Of a stretch of 64,000 nt of DNA, positions 32,436 through 59,913 are shown in pieces (positions within the stretch are counted from its first letter, which is position 1; each line of letters begins with the position of its first letter). Where the stretch lies: the NCBI RefSeq assembly GCF_017355785.1, contig NZ_JAFEWE010000001.1, forward strand, positions 496,001-560,000, in the 5' to 3' direction. A program made the translations under genes and the position numbers. The DNA is from Desertivirga arenae. GTDB taxonomy: Bacteria > Bacteroidota > Bacteroidia > Sphingobacteriales > Sphingobacteriaceae. The notes below the pieces were generated by a model. The model was not told the DNA's origin. It saw only the letters and a list, made by a program, of their open reading frames with translations, and ran no database searches.

Positions 32436-32449
32436 ATACTAATTGGTAT
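32436..32449. promoter_or_regulatory. TetR operator ATACTAATTGGTAT over the ketosynthase start codon
   Basis: ATAC-N6-GTAT. Its last bases overlap the ATG at 32448. Reverse complement ATACCAATTAGTAT differs from the TetR-promoter site at one base. Confidence 0.7.
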
Positions 32450-33707
32450 GAAAAACAAAAAGGTAGTAGTAACGGGATTAGGCACAGTAAATCCCCTGGG
32501 ACTAAATGTGAAGGACTTCTGGAAAAATACGATTGAAGGGAAGTCGGGCGCCGGACCCATCACGAAGTTTGATGCCTCAAAATTTAAAACAACTTTTGCA
32601 TGTGAAGTAAAGGGTTTTGATCCAGAACTTTATATAGAGAAGAAAGAAATAAGGAAATATGATCTATTTACTCAATATGCCATTTCTGCGGCCCAGGAAG
32701 CGATTGAAGATGCAGGCTTTGATTTCGCTCGGCTTTCGGATGAAGAAAGGACTCGAATTGGAGTTATTTGGGCCTCTGGGTATGGAGGAATTAGCACCTT
32801 TGAGTCTCAGCTTACTGAATTTAATTCAGGAGACGGAACGCCAAGATTTAATCCCTTCTTTATTCCTAAAATCATTACAGATATCGCCGCAGGCGTTATT
32901 TCTATGCGGTACAAGCTTTATGGTCCCAATTACTGCACGGTATCAGCTTGCGCTTCTTCAAACACAGCTATTATAAATGCTTTAGACCTGATTAGAAATG
33001 GCCGGGCTGATGTGGTTATCGTGGGAGGATCTGAGGCCTCTATTACGCCTGCGAGTATTGGTGGCTTTAGTGCGTCGCAGGCTTTATCTAGAAGAAATGA
33101 GGAAATAGAAACGGCCTCACGACCCTTCGATGTTTCAAGAGATGGATTTGTCGCGGGCGAAGGTGCGGGAGCTTTAATTCTTGAAAGCTATGAATATGCT
33201 GTTAAAAGAGGTGCTAAGATTTATGCAGAAGTGGCGGGAGGAGGTATGGCTGCAGACGCCTACCATCTTACATCCACTCACCCTGAGGGCTTGGGGGCTT
33301 TGCTAGGTATTAAGGCAGCGCTGCAGGACGCGGGGGTGGAAGCGTCGGAAATAGGATATATAAATGCACATGCAACATCAACCGGCGCTGGAGATTTAAG
33401 TGAAATGAAAGCAATTGCAGAAGTATTTCGTCAGGCTCCGGATCTATTGATTAGTTCAACAAAATCGATGACGGGACATATGCTTGGTGCTGCAGGAGCG
33501 GTAGAGTCTATCGTCTCGGTCTTATCTCTTTATAATGGAATAATTCCAGCGACGATCAATACTACTGAAATTGATCCCTTGATCCCTTCTGAACTAAATA
33601 TTCTTACAGGCCAGGCTAAAAGGAAAGAGATCCGTTACGCCTTAAATAACAGCTTTGGTTTCGGTGGGCATACAGCTACCTCCATATTTAAAAGGATGAA
33701 TCTATGA
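32448..33707 (+). CDS. Beta-ketoacyl-ACP synthase (FabF-type)
   Basis: 419 aa, full-length KAS II type. Catalytic Cys in VSACASSNTA (about 168), His in NAHATST (about 307) and His in FGFGGHTA (about 406); KSMTGHMLGAAG supplies the conserved Lys-His loop. It condenses acyl-ACP with malonyl-ACP. It stands alone with a TetR regulator, not in a fatty-acid operon, so it is more likely a dedicated elongation or membrane-adaptation enzyme than the housekeeping fabF; the housekeeping copy would lie elsewhere. The operator overlaps its start codon. Confidence 0.92.
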   Translation: MKNKKVVVTGLGTVNPLGLNVKDFWKNTIEGKSGAGPITKFDASKFKTTFACEVKGFDPELYIEKKEIRKYDLFTQYAISAAQEAIEDAGFDFARLSDEERTRIGVIWASGYGGISTFESQLTEFNSGDGTPRFNPFFIPKIITDIAAGVISMRYKLYGPNYCTVSACASSNTAIINALDLIRNGRADVVIVGGSEASITPASIGGFSASQALSRRNEEIETASRPFDVSRDGFVAGEGAGALILESYEYAVKRGAKIYAEVAGGGMAADAYHLTSTHPEGLGALLGIKAALQDAGVEASEIGYINAHATSTGAGDLSEMKAIAEVFRQAPDLLISSTKSMTGHMLGAAGAVESIVSVLSLYNGIIPATINTTEIDPLIPSELNILTGQAKRKEIRYALNNSFGFGGHTATSIFKRMNL

Positions 33708-33816
33708 ATTTGCAAAATCAGGTTCAGGAATTTCACTAGAATTTGCAAGAGCTTGGTGTGCTTAAGTGAAAAGTTTACAACGTGCTCAAGATTATATTTA
33801 AATTATTTTTTTAATT

Positions 33817-33830
33817 GTGACGTAAATCAC
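33817..33830. promoter_or_regulatory. Crp/Fnr-type site GTGACGTAAATCAC before a predicted small RNA
   Basis: Inverted repeat GTGA-N6-TCAC. The TGA-N6-TCA core ends 23 bp before -7 box GATATTTG (33853-33860), a position near -42 expected for a class II activator. The same core occurs before nirB and the U32 operon. Confidence 0.6.
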
Positions 33831-33852
33831 TTGCAAAGAAGTTAGAAAAGTT

Positions 33853-33860
33853 GATATTTG
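33853..33860 (+). promoter_or_regulatory. -7 box GATATTTG of the predicted small RNA
   Basis: One mismatch to TAnnTTTG. A TTG at 33831-33833 lies 19 bp upstream, the expected -33 spacing. Predicted start about 33866. Confidence 0.5.
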
Positions 33861-33865
33861 AGAAG

Positions 33866-33933
33866 GAATTATTTTCATTATTTAGAAATCGTAAAATACC
33901 CCCTGCTCCCTAAGCAGGGGGTATTGTTTTTTG
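33866..33933 (+). ncRNA. Predicted FNR-type-regulated small RNA
   Basis: A promoter with a Crp/Fnr-type site is followed only 35 bp later by a perfect 13-bp terminator hairpin, leaving about 68 nt and no ORF. It may be an independent small RNA or a 3'-UTR-derived RNA, since the same terminator would end the ketosynthase transcript. Confidence 0.45.
33895..33933 (+). terminator. Strong terminator after the ketosynthase gene
   Basis: 13-bp perfect stem (33895-33907 with 33913-33925), 5-nt loop CCCTA, then GTTTTTTG. Confidence 0.9.
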
Positions 33934-33971: not shown

Positions 33972-33989
33972 ACACGTATTTATACGTGT
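33972..33989. promoter_or_regulatory. Palindrome ACACGTATTTATACGTGT
   Basis: 8-bp perfect arms with a TT centre, abutting a perfect -7 box TATATTTG (33989-33996). A likely operator of the hairpin RNA copy B; the regulator is unknown. Confidence 0.6.
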
Positions 33990-34001
33990 ATATTTGATAC
34001 T

Positions 34002-34055
34002 TTGGTTTTGGTCTTAAGTCCCACTAGCAACTGGTAATGCTAGTGGGTTTTTTAT
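34002..34055 (+). ncRNA. Predicted small hairpin RNA, copy B
   Basis: Begins about 6 nt after the -7 box, carries GTTTTGG (34005-34011) and a 9-bp hairpin CCCACTAGC/GCTAGTGGG with 10-nt loop AACTGGTAAT, then six T. Copy A at 20990-21047 has the same layout with compensatory stem changes. It points into the 3' end of the FNR-like gene on the opposite strand, so it is a free-standing unit. About 54 nt. Confidence 0.55.
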
Positions 34056-34137: not shown

Positions 34138-34827
34138 TTATCCCCGGGCTATGATCTCCAGTAGTAGCGCTTCATTTTGAATGAACAAACTCTTACCGGA
34201 AAATGCTACGATTTTATTAGCTGTTAACTCCGTAACTACTTTAAAAAAGGTTTCATAGGAAGCCCCGGCATAAGCAGCAATATCCTGTTTATTAATATCG
34301 AGGTTTATAGAACCATCTGAGCGAAGCCCAAACTGATTTTTCATACTTACAAAGGCTTTAGCGATACGAGCTTTAACAGACATGTGAGCAAGGTCGCGCA
34401 TACTCTTATGTGACTCCTGAAGATCGGTTGCCAGAAGTCGGACAAGTGCAACTGTAAACTTTGAATTCACATTAAGGGTGTTTTCAAGGAACTGCAGATC
34501 AAGAAAACAGACAACCGATGGTTCAAGCGCAGTAGTAGTAACAGGATAAGTGGGATCGAGGCCCAACCCAAGATAGCCGATAACATCTCCAGGCTTCGAG
34601 AAGCGAATGATCAGCTCTTTTTCATTGTCCCAGCGTTTGTGCACTTTAATGGTGCCTTTATAAACAAAATAAATCCCTGTTACCGGATCATCTTCTTTAA
34701 AAACCTGCTGACCTTTTTTAATCTCGAGATTGCGCTTATTTGCTTCAATAGCCGGCAACCAATCAGGAAGAACCAGTTGGCAAAGAAAACAACTTTTCAG
34801 GTCACATTTATTTTTACATTCCTTCAT
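34138..34827 (-). CDS. FNR-like Crp-family regulator with N-terminal cysteine cluster
   Basis: 229 aa from ATG 34827; a TTG at 34842 is the alternative. The N-terminus MKECKNKCDLKSCFLC has four Cys (C-x3-C-x4-C-x2-C), and an additional Cys lies in the beta-roll (SVVCFLDLQF), a layout like Fe-S-sensing FNR proteins. The HTH reads DIAAYAGASYETFFKVVTEL; Glu and Lys occupy the positions of the FNR Glu and Arg that read TGA. An oxygen- or NO-responsive regulator is likely. Matching TGA-N6-TCA sites occur at three promoters in this window. Confidence 0.88.
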   Translation of the reverse strand: MKECKNKCDLKSCFLCQLVLPDWLPAIEANKRNLEIKKGQQVFKEDDPVTGIYFVYKGTIKVHKRWDNEKELIIRFSKPGDVIGYLGLGLDPTYPVTTTALEPSVVCFLDLQFLENTLNVNSKFTVALVRLLATDLQESHKSMRDLAHMSVKARIAKAFVSMKNQFGLRSDGSINLDINKQDIAAYAGASYETFFKVVTELTANKIVAFSGKSLFIQNEALLLEIIARG

Positions 34828-34899
34828 GGCGTGGCACACCAAAGATACAACATGACGAACTCATTCTGATACTTGTTATGAAGACTCTCCAAGAGCTTC

Positions 34900-52212: not shown

Positions 52213-52234
52213 TGGAAAAGCTAGAGGAATAAAT

Positions 52235-52248
52235 ATGATCTAAATCAC
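52235..52248. promoter_or_regulatory. Crp/Fnr-type site before the U32 operon
   Basis: TGATCTAAATCA core (52236-52247), i.e. TGA-N6-TCA, at about -42 of the predicted minus-strand start. The core TGAT-N4-ATCA also matches the FNR form. Confidence 0.6.
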
Positions 52249-52291
52249 AAAGCACTAGAAATAGATTCCCCTGTCCCCATTGATGGCAATC

Positions 52292-59515: not shown

Positions 59516-59879
59516 AATTCAAATAGTATATCTTCTGATACCAATAATTCAAACACAATAATGTTTTACAATATACTTGAACAGCGAACAACAACATTTA
59601 GACTATAAGGAATAAAAAGGCAACAGGGGACATTACAATAACACAAAAAAACCAATAAATAGATCAAGATACATTTATATCACAAAACAAAAGACCATAA
59701 ACCACCATTAAATCACGAAGAAACATCCAAACTAGAATAAAAAATAAAAAATAGACCTAAAATTAATTGACAAACTATCAAAATTTAGGAAAAAACCAGC
59801 AGTATTTGTTTTTCTAACCACTAAAAAAGGTTATTAAATTAATATTTTTACAAAAATCTCCTTTCTATAAAAGTTTTTC

Positions 59880-59893
59880 ATGATTTAAATCAT
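59880..59893. promoter_or_regulatory. FNR-type site ATGATTTAAATCAT upstream of nirB
   Basis: A perfect 14-bp palindrome with core TGAT-N4-ATCA, i.e. TGA-N6-TCA. Its centre is at about -41 from the start predicted by the -7 box at 59914-59921, the position of class II FNR/CRP activator sites. No -33 TTG is seen, as expected for an activated promoter. Confidence 0.75.
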
Positions 59894-59913
59894 ACTTAAA
59901 GATGTTTTTTATT

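Follow-up and report, generated by a model that had tools for sequence, protein, structure and literature searches.

A candidate FNR-activated small RNA unit, apparently species-restricted, in the 3' untranslated region of a ketosynthase gene of Desertivirga arenae

A unit of about 68 nt at 33866-33933 is a credible candidate for a small RNA activated by FNR and appears to be restricted to its species. It lies within the 64-kb window, the whole stretch of Desertivirga arenae DNA that was analysed, downstream of a ketosynthase gene, where the sequence presents in order the ketosynthase stop at 33707, an FNR-type box, a TTG, a -7 box, an AU-rich stretch, a terminator, a second terminator and a convergent regulator gene. 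The elements concerned, together with the two other strong FNR-type sites of the window, are as follows:

32448-33707, + strand: beta-ketoacyl synthase gene (PF00109/PF02801), whose 3' UTR holds the unit
33815-33832, centre 33823.5: FNR-type palindromic box TTGTGACGTAAATCACTT, from the sequence and its matrix score
33831-33833, + strand: TTG at -33, read in the sequence, starting 26 nt upstream of the first T of TTTG in the -7 box
33853-33860, + strand: -7 box GATATTTG, which is TAnnTTTG with position 1 changed, 37 nt from the box centre
33866-33933, + strand: predicted ORF-less transcript of about 65-70 nt (start 33864-33868), as deduced from promoter and terminator
33895-33925, + strand: intrinsic terminator of 13 pairs and a T tract, probably shared with the ketosynthase mRNA
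34020-34047, + strand: second terminator, downstream of the unit and before the convergent regulator gene
34138-34842, - strand: convergent gene for an FNR-type regulator (PF00027 and PF13545)
52232-52251: FNR-type box before a U32-peptidase-like gene (- strand), with a -7 box 37 nt from the centre
59877-59896: FNR-type box before nirB (+ strand), with a -7 box 35 nt from the centre
60007, + strand: nirB (TIGR02374 and NF011565 above cut-off), with an FNR-type box upstream

We propose that at low oxygen a regulator of the Crp/Fnr family would bind the box at 33815-33832 and, from a class-II position with its centre about 42 nt before the start, would touch RNA polymerase and activate the promoter that carries TTG at -33 and GATATTTG at -7. 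Transcription would then start near 33866 and stop at the terminator at 33895-33925, which would also end the ketosynthase mRNA, giving a product of about 65-70 nt that consists of a mostly single-stranded, AU-rich 5' end of about 29 nt and the terminator hairpin. Our guess is that this product may be a recently arisen, species-restricted small RNA that pairs through its 5' end; a variant, also a guess, would have it act as an antisense RNA on the 3' UTR of the mRNA from the convergent fnr-type gene, if that mRNA runs past 33933. Taken as a whole, a short RNA activated by FNR through a class-II promoter appears to be the best explanation of this region, and we hold it with somewhat better than even confidence.

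The FNR-type site, the -33 TTG and the -7 box, which a sequence-only reading of this DNA had described, can all be read directly in the sequence, the core TGTGA-N6-TCAC within TTGTGACGTAAATCACTT being located at 33816-33830. The bare motif alone proves nothing, since its counts genome-wide are near those of control patterns: TGTGAN6TCACA with up to one mismatch is found 106 times in the 6.19-Mb genome and its reversed control 119 times, so that there is no enrichment, and RTGATNNNNATCAY is found 41 times versus 34 for its control, a bare enrichment. Counts of the plain CRP palindrome and of RTGATNNNNATCAY were rejected as evidence for this reason and, as they were uninformative, the form of the box was sought in loci of the same lineage. 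With the own genome counted, 15 of the 30 nirB loci of the family showed a TGAY-N4-RTCA box in the 400 nt before the gene, eight of these 15 boxes being ATGATTTNNATCAT, and 19 of the 30 family loci with a gene for a ccoI-like P-type ATPase showed one in the 300 nt before it, where the form GTGAY-N4-RTCAC is common. A matrix was built from 44 distinct sites upstream of ccoI-like genes and nirB with the own genome left out; these training sites had been pre-selected by a pattern, and many of the ccoI promoters are related by descent. The site centred at 33823.5 scores 15.5 in this matrix, a value below which 17 of the 44 training sites fall. The only strong sites in the window are this one and those centred at 52241.5 (19.8, before the U32-peptidase-like gene) and 59886.5 (17.8, before nirB), the next best scoring 10.95. 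TTGTGACGTAAATCACTT resembles the box TTGTGATCTCTATCACTT that precedes a ccoI-like gene of the same genome. The form RTGAYNTAAATCAY, which was derived post hoc from sites of the window itself, occurs at five places in 6.19 Mb, three of them within the window, its reversed control occurring at two forward and two reverse.

The distance between box and -7 element carries the second part of the argument. When -7 boxes, defined as TAnnTTTG with up to one mismatch, were counted downstream of 49 box centres at nirB and ccoI loci, 11 were found at 35-39 nt and 19 at 55-59 nt, the other 5-nt bins holding one to seven each. Peaks two helical turns apart are what is expected for class-II and class-I activation by CRP/FNR. 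Smaller peaks also appear in the direction opposite to the gene, with nine boxes at 35-39 nt (six at exactly 37) and eight at 55-59 nt, and perfect -7 boxes number seven forward and two backward at the family loci; for the opposite-direction peak of -7-like octamers at 37 nt, divergent genes and tandem boxes are the only explanation that we can offer. The host genome shows the same preference, with a -7 box at 35-38 or 58-60 nt in 10 of 22 gene-facing directions (null 7.1%, P 9e-7) and a perfect one in six of 22 (null 0.5%, P 1.5e-9), both nulls being points outside the listed ORFs of the window and the spacing windows having been chosen after seeing the family loci; 12 of the 22 directions at these other host boxes have no -7 box at a preferred spacing. 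The 22 directions come from 19 intergenic rows, with the unit itself and the second site of locus L156 (34 nt from the first) left out, and these rows are not a random genome sample, since the regions were fetched for pattern matches and the window was added to them. The distance of 37 nt is common to the unit, the U32-peptidase-like gene and the promoters at L076 and L088. A strong matrix site together with this distance, on a spacing shared in the genome, makes a class-II FNR-type promoter at the unit likely, and we regard the predicted promoter as quite probably real. A by-product of this comparison is the description of an FNR-box class for Sphingobacteriaceae, in which the centre of TGAY-N4-RTCA and a -7 box are about 37 or 59 nt apart; it may be used for regulon prediction in these bacteria.

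The first letter of TAnnTTTG is changed in the -7 box of the unit. Among 25 distinct -7 boxes at preferred spacings (two from the host, eight of class II; repeated sequences and boxes at 33-34, 39-41, 54-56 and 61-62 nt left out), 18 differ from TAnnTTTG at position 1 only and three are perfect, while the position-1 change is seen in two of 21 distinct boxes at other spacings. With repeats kept, it is present in 18 of 19 boxes at 57-60 nt (class I) and in four of 11 at 35-38 nt (class II). The rule is thus carried by the class-I boxes of ccoI, whereas the unit has class-II spacing, so that GATATTTG can be taken as an acceptable variant rather than as a proven class-II type. The same octamer occurs in the ccoI promoter of a relative (L118), where it lies at 37 nt from a first box and at 59 nt from a second. 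An alignment of eight promoters was discarded as evidence, since class-I and class-II promoters were mis-registered in it. A scan with the sigma-70 consensus gave no + strand promoter at the unit and a single minus-strand match there (33895-33868, 9/12), with three matches found versus 6.9 expected.

The predicted start, at 33864-33868, makes the position 33866 proposed earlier a reasonable one. The terminator is indeed of 13 pairs, seven of them G-C, and is followed by GTTTTTTG. The 68 nt from 33866 to 33933 hold no ORF, as had been claimed: ATG and GTG are absent, and TTG is confined to the final bases of the terminator stem and the extreme end of the unit. Their folding energy is -24.0 kcal/mol (z -4.8); the centroid fold contains nothing but the terminator, and in the minimum-energy fold just one 3-pair helix joins it at the 5' end. 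No other + strand terminator was found between 33707 and 33895 in a consensus terminator scan, which leaves room for the suggested sharing of the terminator with the ketosynthase 3' UTR. The suggestion of a 3'-UTR-derived RNA holds as to location, in the 3' UTR of the ketosynthase gene, but not as to a processed fragment: with a predicted promoter of its own, the RNA would be the product of a gene located in a 3' UTR. The unit therefore shows the marks of a small RNA gene, an intrinsic terminator, no ORF and a promoter of its own, the last by comparison only, and the production of a short RNA is moderately probable. A regulatory function for it is doubtful. Pairing of its 5' 30 nt with the 54 start regions of the window was no better than that of shuffled letters, the best duplex having -12.0 kcal/mol, a value equalled or bettered by 84 of 100 shuffles; the target prediction suggested by the sequence-only reading thus yielded no signal in duplex energies for these regions.

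As to the protein that might bind the box, the convergent gene at 34138-34842 encodes a regulator with the three N-terminal and one central cysteine of the FNR type. These residues, C13, C18, C21 and C112 as numbered from the TTG start, are invariant in seven of seven sequences. Such cysteines are ligands of the [4Fe-4S] cluster in FNR. In an FNR whose structure has been solved (9qmc), a cysteine stands at the position aligned with C112. The NCBIfam Fnr model gives this protein 77.6 bits, below its cut-off of 228, and its nearest named relatives, at 56-57%, are from Pedobacter, Mucilaginibacter and a Sphingobacteriaceae MAG. A profile search rendered six Crp/Fnr relatives in the host genome, two of which, that at 34138-34842 and one at C12:561317-562006, adjoining a moeA-like gene, are of the FNR type with conserved cysteines; the rest are three proteins that read by eye as receiver-Crp fusions and one weak match. 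The two Cys-type FNR proteins and the three fusions are all candidates for the box regulator, as judged from their sequences. The fusions are found at loci L170, L171 and L172 (host genome C41, C34 and C23); in that of L171 the recognition helix looks, by eye, like that of FNR, and its gene adjoins a D-lactate-dehydrogenase-like gene, whose promoter has a box scoring 19.6 with a perfect -7 box at 59 nt.

The same box precedes nirB and genes that, reading by eye, we take to be ccoI-, ccoNO-, nasA-, D-lactate dehydrogenase- and phosphoglycerate mutase-like, and also what reads as a nitrate-transport-like cluster 328 nt away. The ccoI-like gene of the host is followed by genes that we take, from their sequences, to be ccoN/O-, ccoP- and ccoG-like. 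We infer from this company that the box would belong to an oxygen- and nitrate-related regulator, and low oxygen is the probable signal given the cbb3-oxidase-like, nitrite/nitrate reductase and D-lactate-dehydrogenase-like genes with the same box. In two Pedobacter genomes, an FNR-type box is located between nirB-like and methyltransferase-like genes (L027 2933-2952 and L028 2931-2950), some 3 kb away from an orthologue of the convergent regulator, a tie of this regulator type to nitrite assimilation.

No full-length copy of the unit appeared among the matches listed in 398 other genomes of the family, with two candidates scored per genome; those listed are scattered and short, the best non-self one among them reaching 2e-5 over 32 nt. 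Three non-self DNA matches to the region were dismissed as copies: L003 and L004 lie inside ORFs, that of L003 being what we take to be a polynucleotide phosphorylase, and L002, on inspection by eye, resembles a glutamate-synthase gene. The genus is represented by three genomes. In a sister species the locus of the ketosynthase orthologue (73%, L006) has no FNR-type box, its best matrix score being 3.5, and different DNA follows the orthologue. No comparable unit was found downstream of related fnr genes, either with a narrower pattern or in a matrix rescan of 18 loci, in which scores above 15 were reached by the L027 and L028 boxes that adjoin nirB-like genes and by one site in L009, 355 nt upstream of a ketosynthase paralogue. 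Among 84 strand-specific box-plus--7 units of the fetched loci (box of at least 14, -7 box at 34-41 or 55-61 nt; after removal of sites lying in ORFs of over 270 nt, of those lacking a -7 box and of duplicate sequences), the unit at 33816 is the only one that reaches a terminator, as called by a purpose-made finder, before an ORF. On this ground the unit is to be seen as an orphan, a small RNA gene or else a promoter whose gene has been lost. Missing conservation alone does not exclude a small RNA, since in Bacteroides thetaiotaomicron 27 of 49 high-confidence intergenic sRNAs are strain-specific (PMC7366714).

The alternatives to this reading concern, on the one hand, the promoter. It is rather improbable that the box is a chance match at which nothing starts, the hairpin being just the terminator of the ketosynthase operon. 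Control patterns are met about as often as bare CRP/FNR palindromes, and a score of 15.5 is reached at 0.18 sites per 64 kb of random DNA and at 2.5 sites per Mb of AT-rich, intergenic-like random DNA (50 sites in 20 Mb), but none of these 50 sites has NAnnTTTG 35-38 nt downstream (one strand examined), and a -7 box with up to one mismatch at 34-38 nt combined with a TTG 25-27 nt before the TTTG is met at 0.24% of non-ORF points, per strand. Moreover, the window has three strong sites only, the other two of which stand before genes. It could also be the case that the regulator acts on the minus strand and drives an antisense RNA into the 3' end of the ketosynthase gene, a reading to which a one-mismatch -7 box, TAATCTTG, 37 nt from the centre 33823.5 on that strand lends itself, as does the recurrence of this spacing in the opposite direction at the family loci. 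With no TTG at -33 on the minus strand, and with a mismatch at the first T of TTTG seen in none of the 25 preferred-spacing boxes, eight of class II, we consider it very improbable.

If, on the other hand, the promoter is real, the RNA could be without function, a relic or by-product such as a regulatory region left after gene rearrangement and ending at the ketosynthase terminator. This is a serious possibility, with which several results agree: the matches listed for the 398 other genomes of the family show no conservation, the sister species has different DNA behind its ketosynthase orthologue, a terminator ahead of an ORF is met by none of the remaining 83 box-plus--7 units, and target pairing gave no signal. 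Nevertheless, the box, the TTG, the -7 spacing and the 13-pair terminator are all intact, and such elements would not be expected to survive long unused; young small RNAs are, besides, often not conserved, as the strain-specific ones of B. thetaiotaomicron indicate (PMC7366714). It is less probable, and on balance unlikely, that the RNA finds its pairing partner in the 3' UTR of the mRNA from the convergent fnr-type gene, so that the regulator would limit its own message. The convergent gene stops at 34138 and the consensus scan reported no minus-strand terminator between this position and the unit, so that the fnr-type mRNA may overlap the unit fully. The overlap, however, requires a 3' UTR of more than 200 nt, there are by sequence five candidate regulators for the box, and the arrangement is absent from the related fnr loci examined. 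Were it true, there would be an oxygen-dependent RNA loop acting on a regulator of the same family as its activator.

Among known systems, FnrS ends at an intrinsic terminator, and AniS is the gonococcal FnrS-like RNA. Escherichia coli FnrS is activated by FNR from a class-II site centred at -41.5 (PMC3032703), and the candidate unit is like it in having an FNR-type box with class-II geometry, here with its centre at about -42, before a predicted small RNA. It is unlike FnrS in its promoter type, TTG/TAnnTTTG, which is that of Bacteroidota, and in having no copy among the matches listed in relatives. The parallel with FnrS drawn by the sequence-only reading, in logic and not in sequence, fits the class-II geometry, and no similarity to FnrS was detected with Rfam, which at the gathering threshold lists two tRNAs only in the window; the unit is thus a credible candidate for an RNA that works like FnrS without homology to it. 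The same source describes a Neisseria gonorrhoeae RNA with an FNR box, a -10 element and a Rho-independent terminator, likely a functional equivalent of FnrS, whose expression and anaerobic induction were shown (PMC3032703); the unit here is a prediction. PaiI of Pseudomonas aeruginosa is a small RNA induced without oxygen when nitrate is present, but it reportedly depends on NarXL and not on an FNR box (PMC5703892). The promoter and terminator types of the unit are met in the intergenic and 3'-UTR sRNAs of B. thetaiotaomicron (e.g. GibS), which have TAnnTTTG promoters and intrinsic terminators and include a class of 3'-UTR RNAs that start in the 3' region and share the terminator; none is described as FNR-controlled in the available text (PMC7366714). 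A search of titles on FNR sites or FNR-controlled RNAs in Bacteroidota gave none that we recognised as relevant among the matches listed, which is not proof of absence. If transcribed, the unit would provide an oxygen-controlled small RNA in a phylum where few have been studied, and a further case of FNR box plus terminator besides those of enterics and Neisseria, apparently of separate origin.

Some further observations concern the neighbourhood and the paralogues of the ketosynthase gene. A second ORF-less unit is present at 33972-34053, with a palindrome, ACACGTATTTATACGTGT, at 33972-33989 that has no other occurrence in the window with up to three mismatches; a perfect -7 box, TATATTTG, at 33989-33996 overlaps it, and the terminator at 34020-34047 lies downstream. 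ACACGTATTTATACGTGT might be the operator through which a repressor controls a further very short transcript. A frame at 33704-33769 overlaps the ketosynthase stop (ATGA) and runs for 11 codons to TAG and nine more to TGA, being possibly a decayed downstream gene; its supposed relatives were rejected, as its matches are the coding-gene DNA matches L002-L004. Finally, an FNR-type box scoring 15.4 is found elsewhere in the host genome (C6; L009 1137-1156), upstream of an apparent acpP-fabF pair, and two further genomes of the genus (L007 and L008) have weaker matches, of 11.1 and 8.9, in the corresponding position, a hint that fatty-acid synthesis may be under oxygen control.
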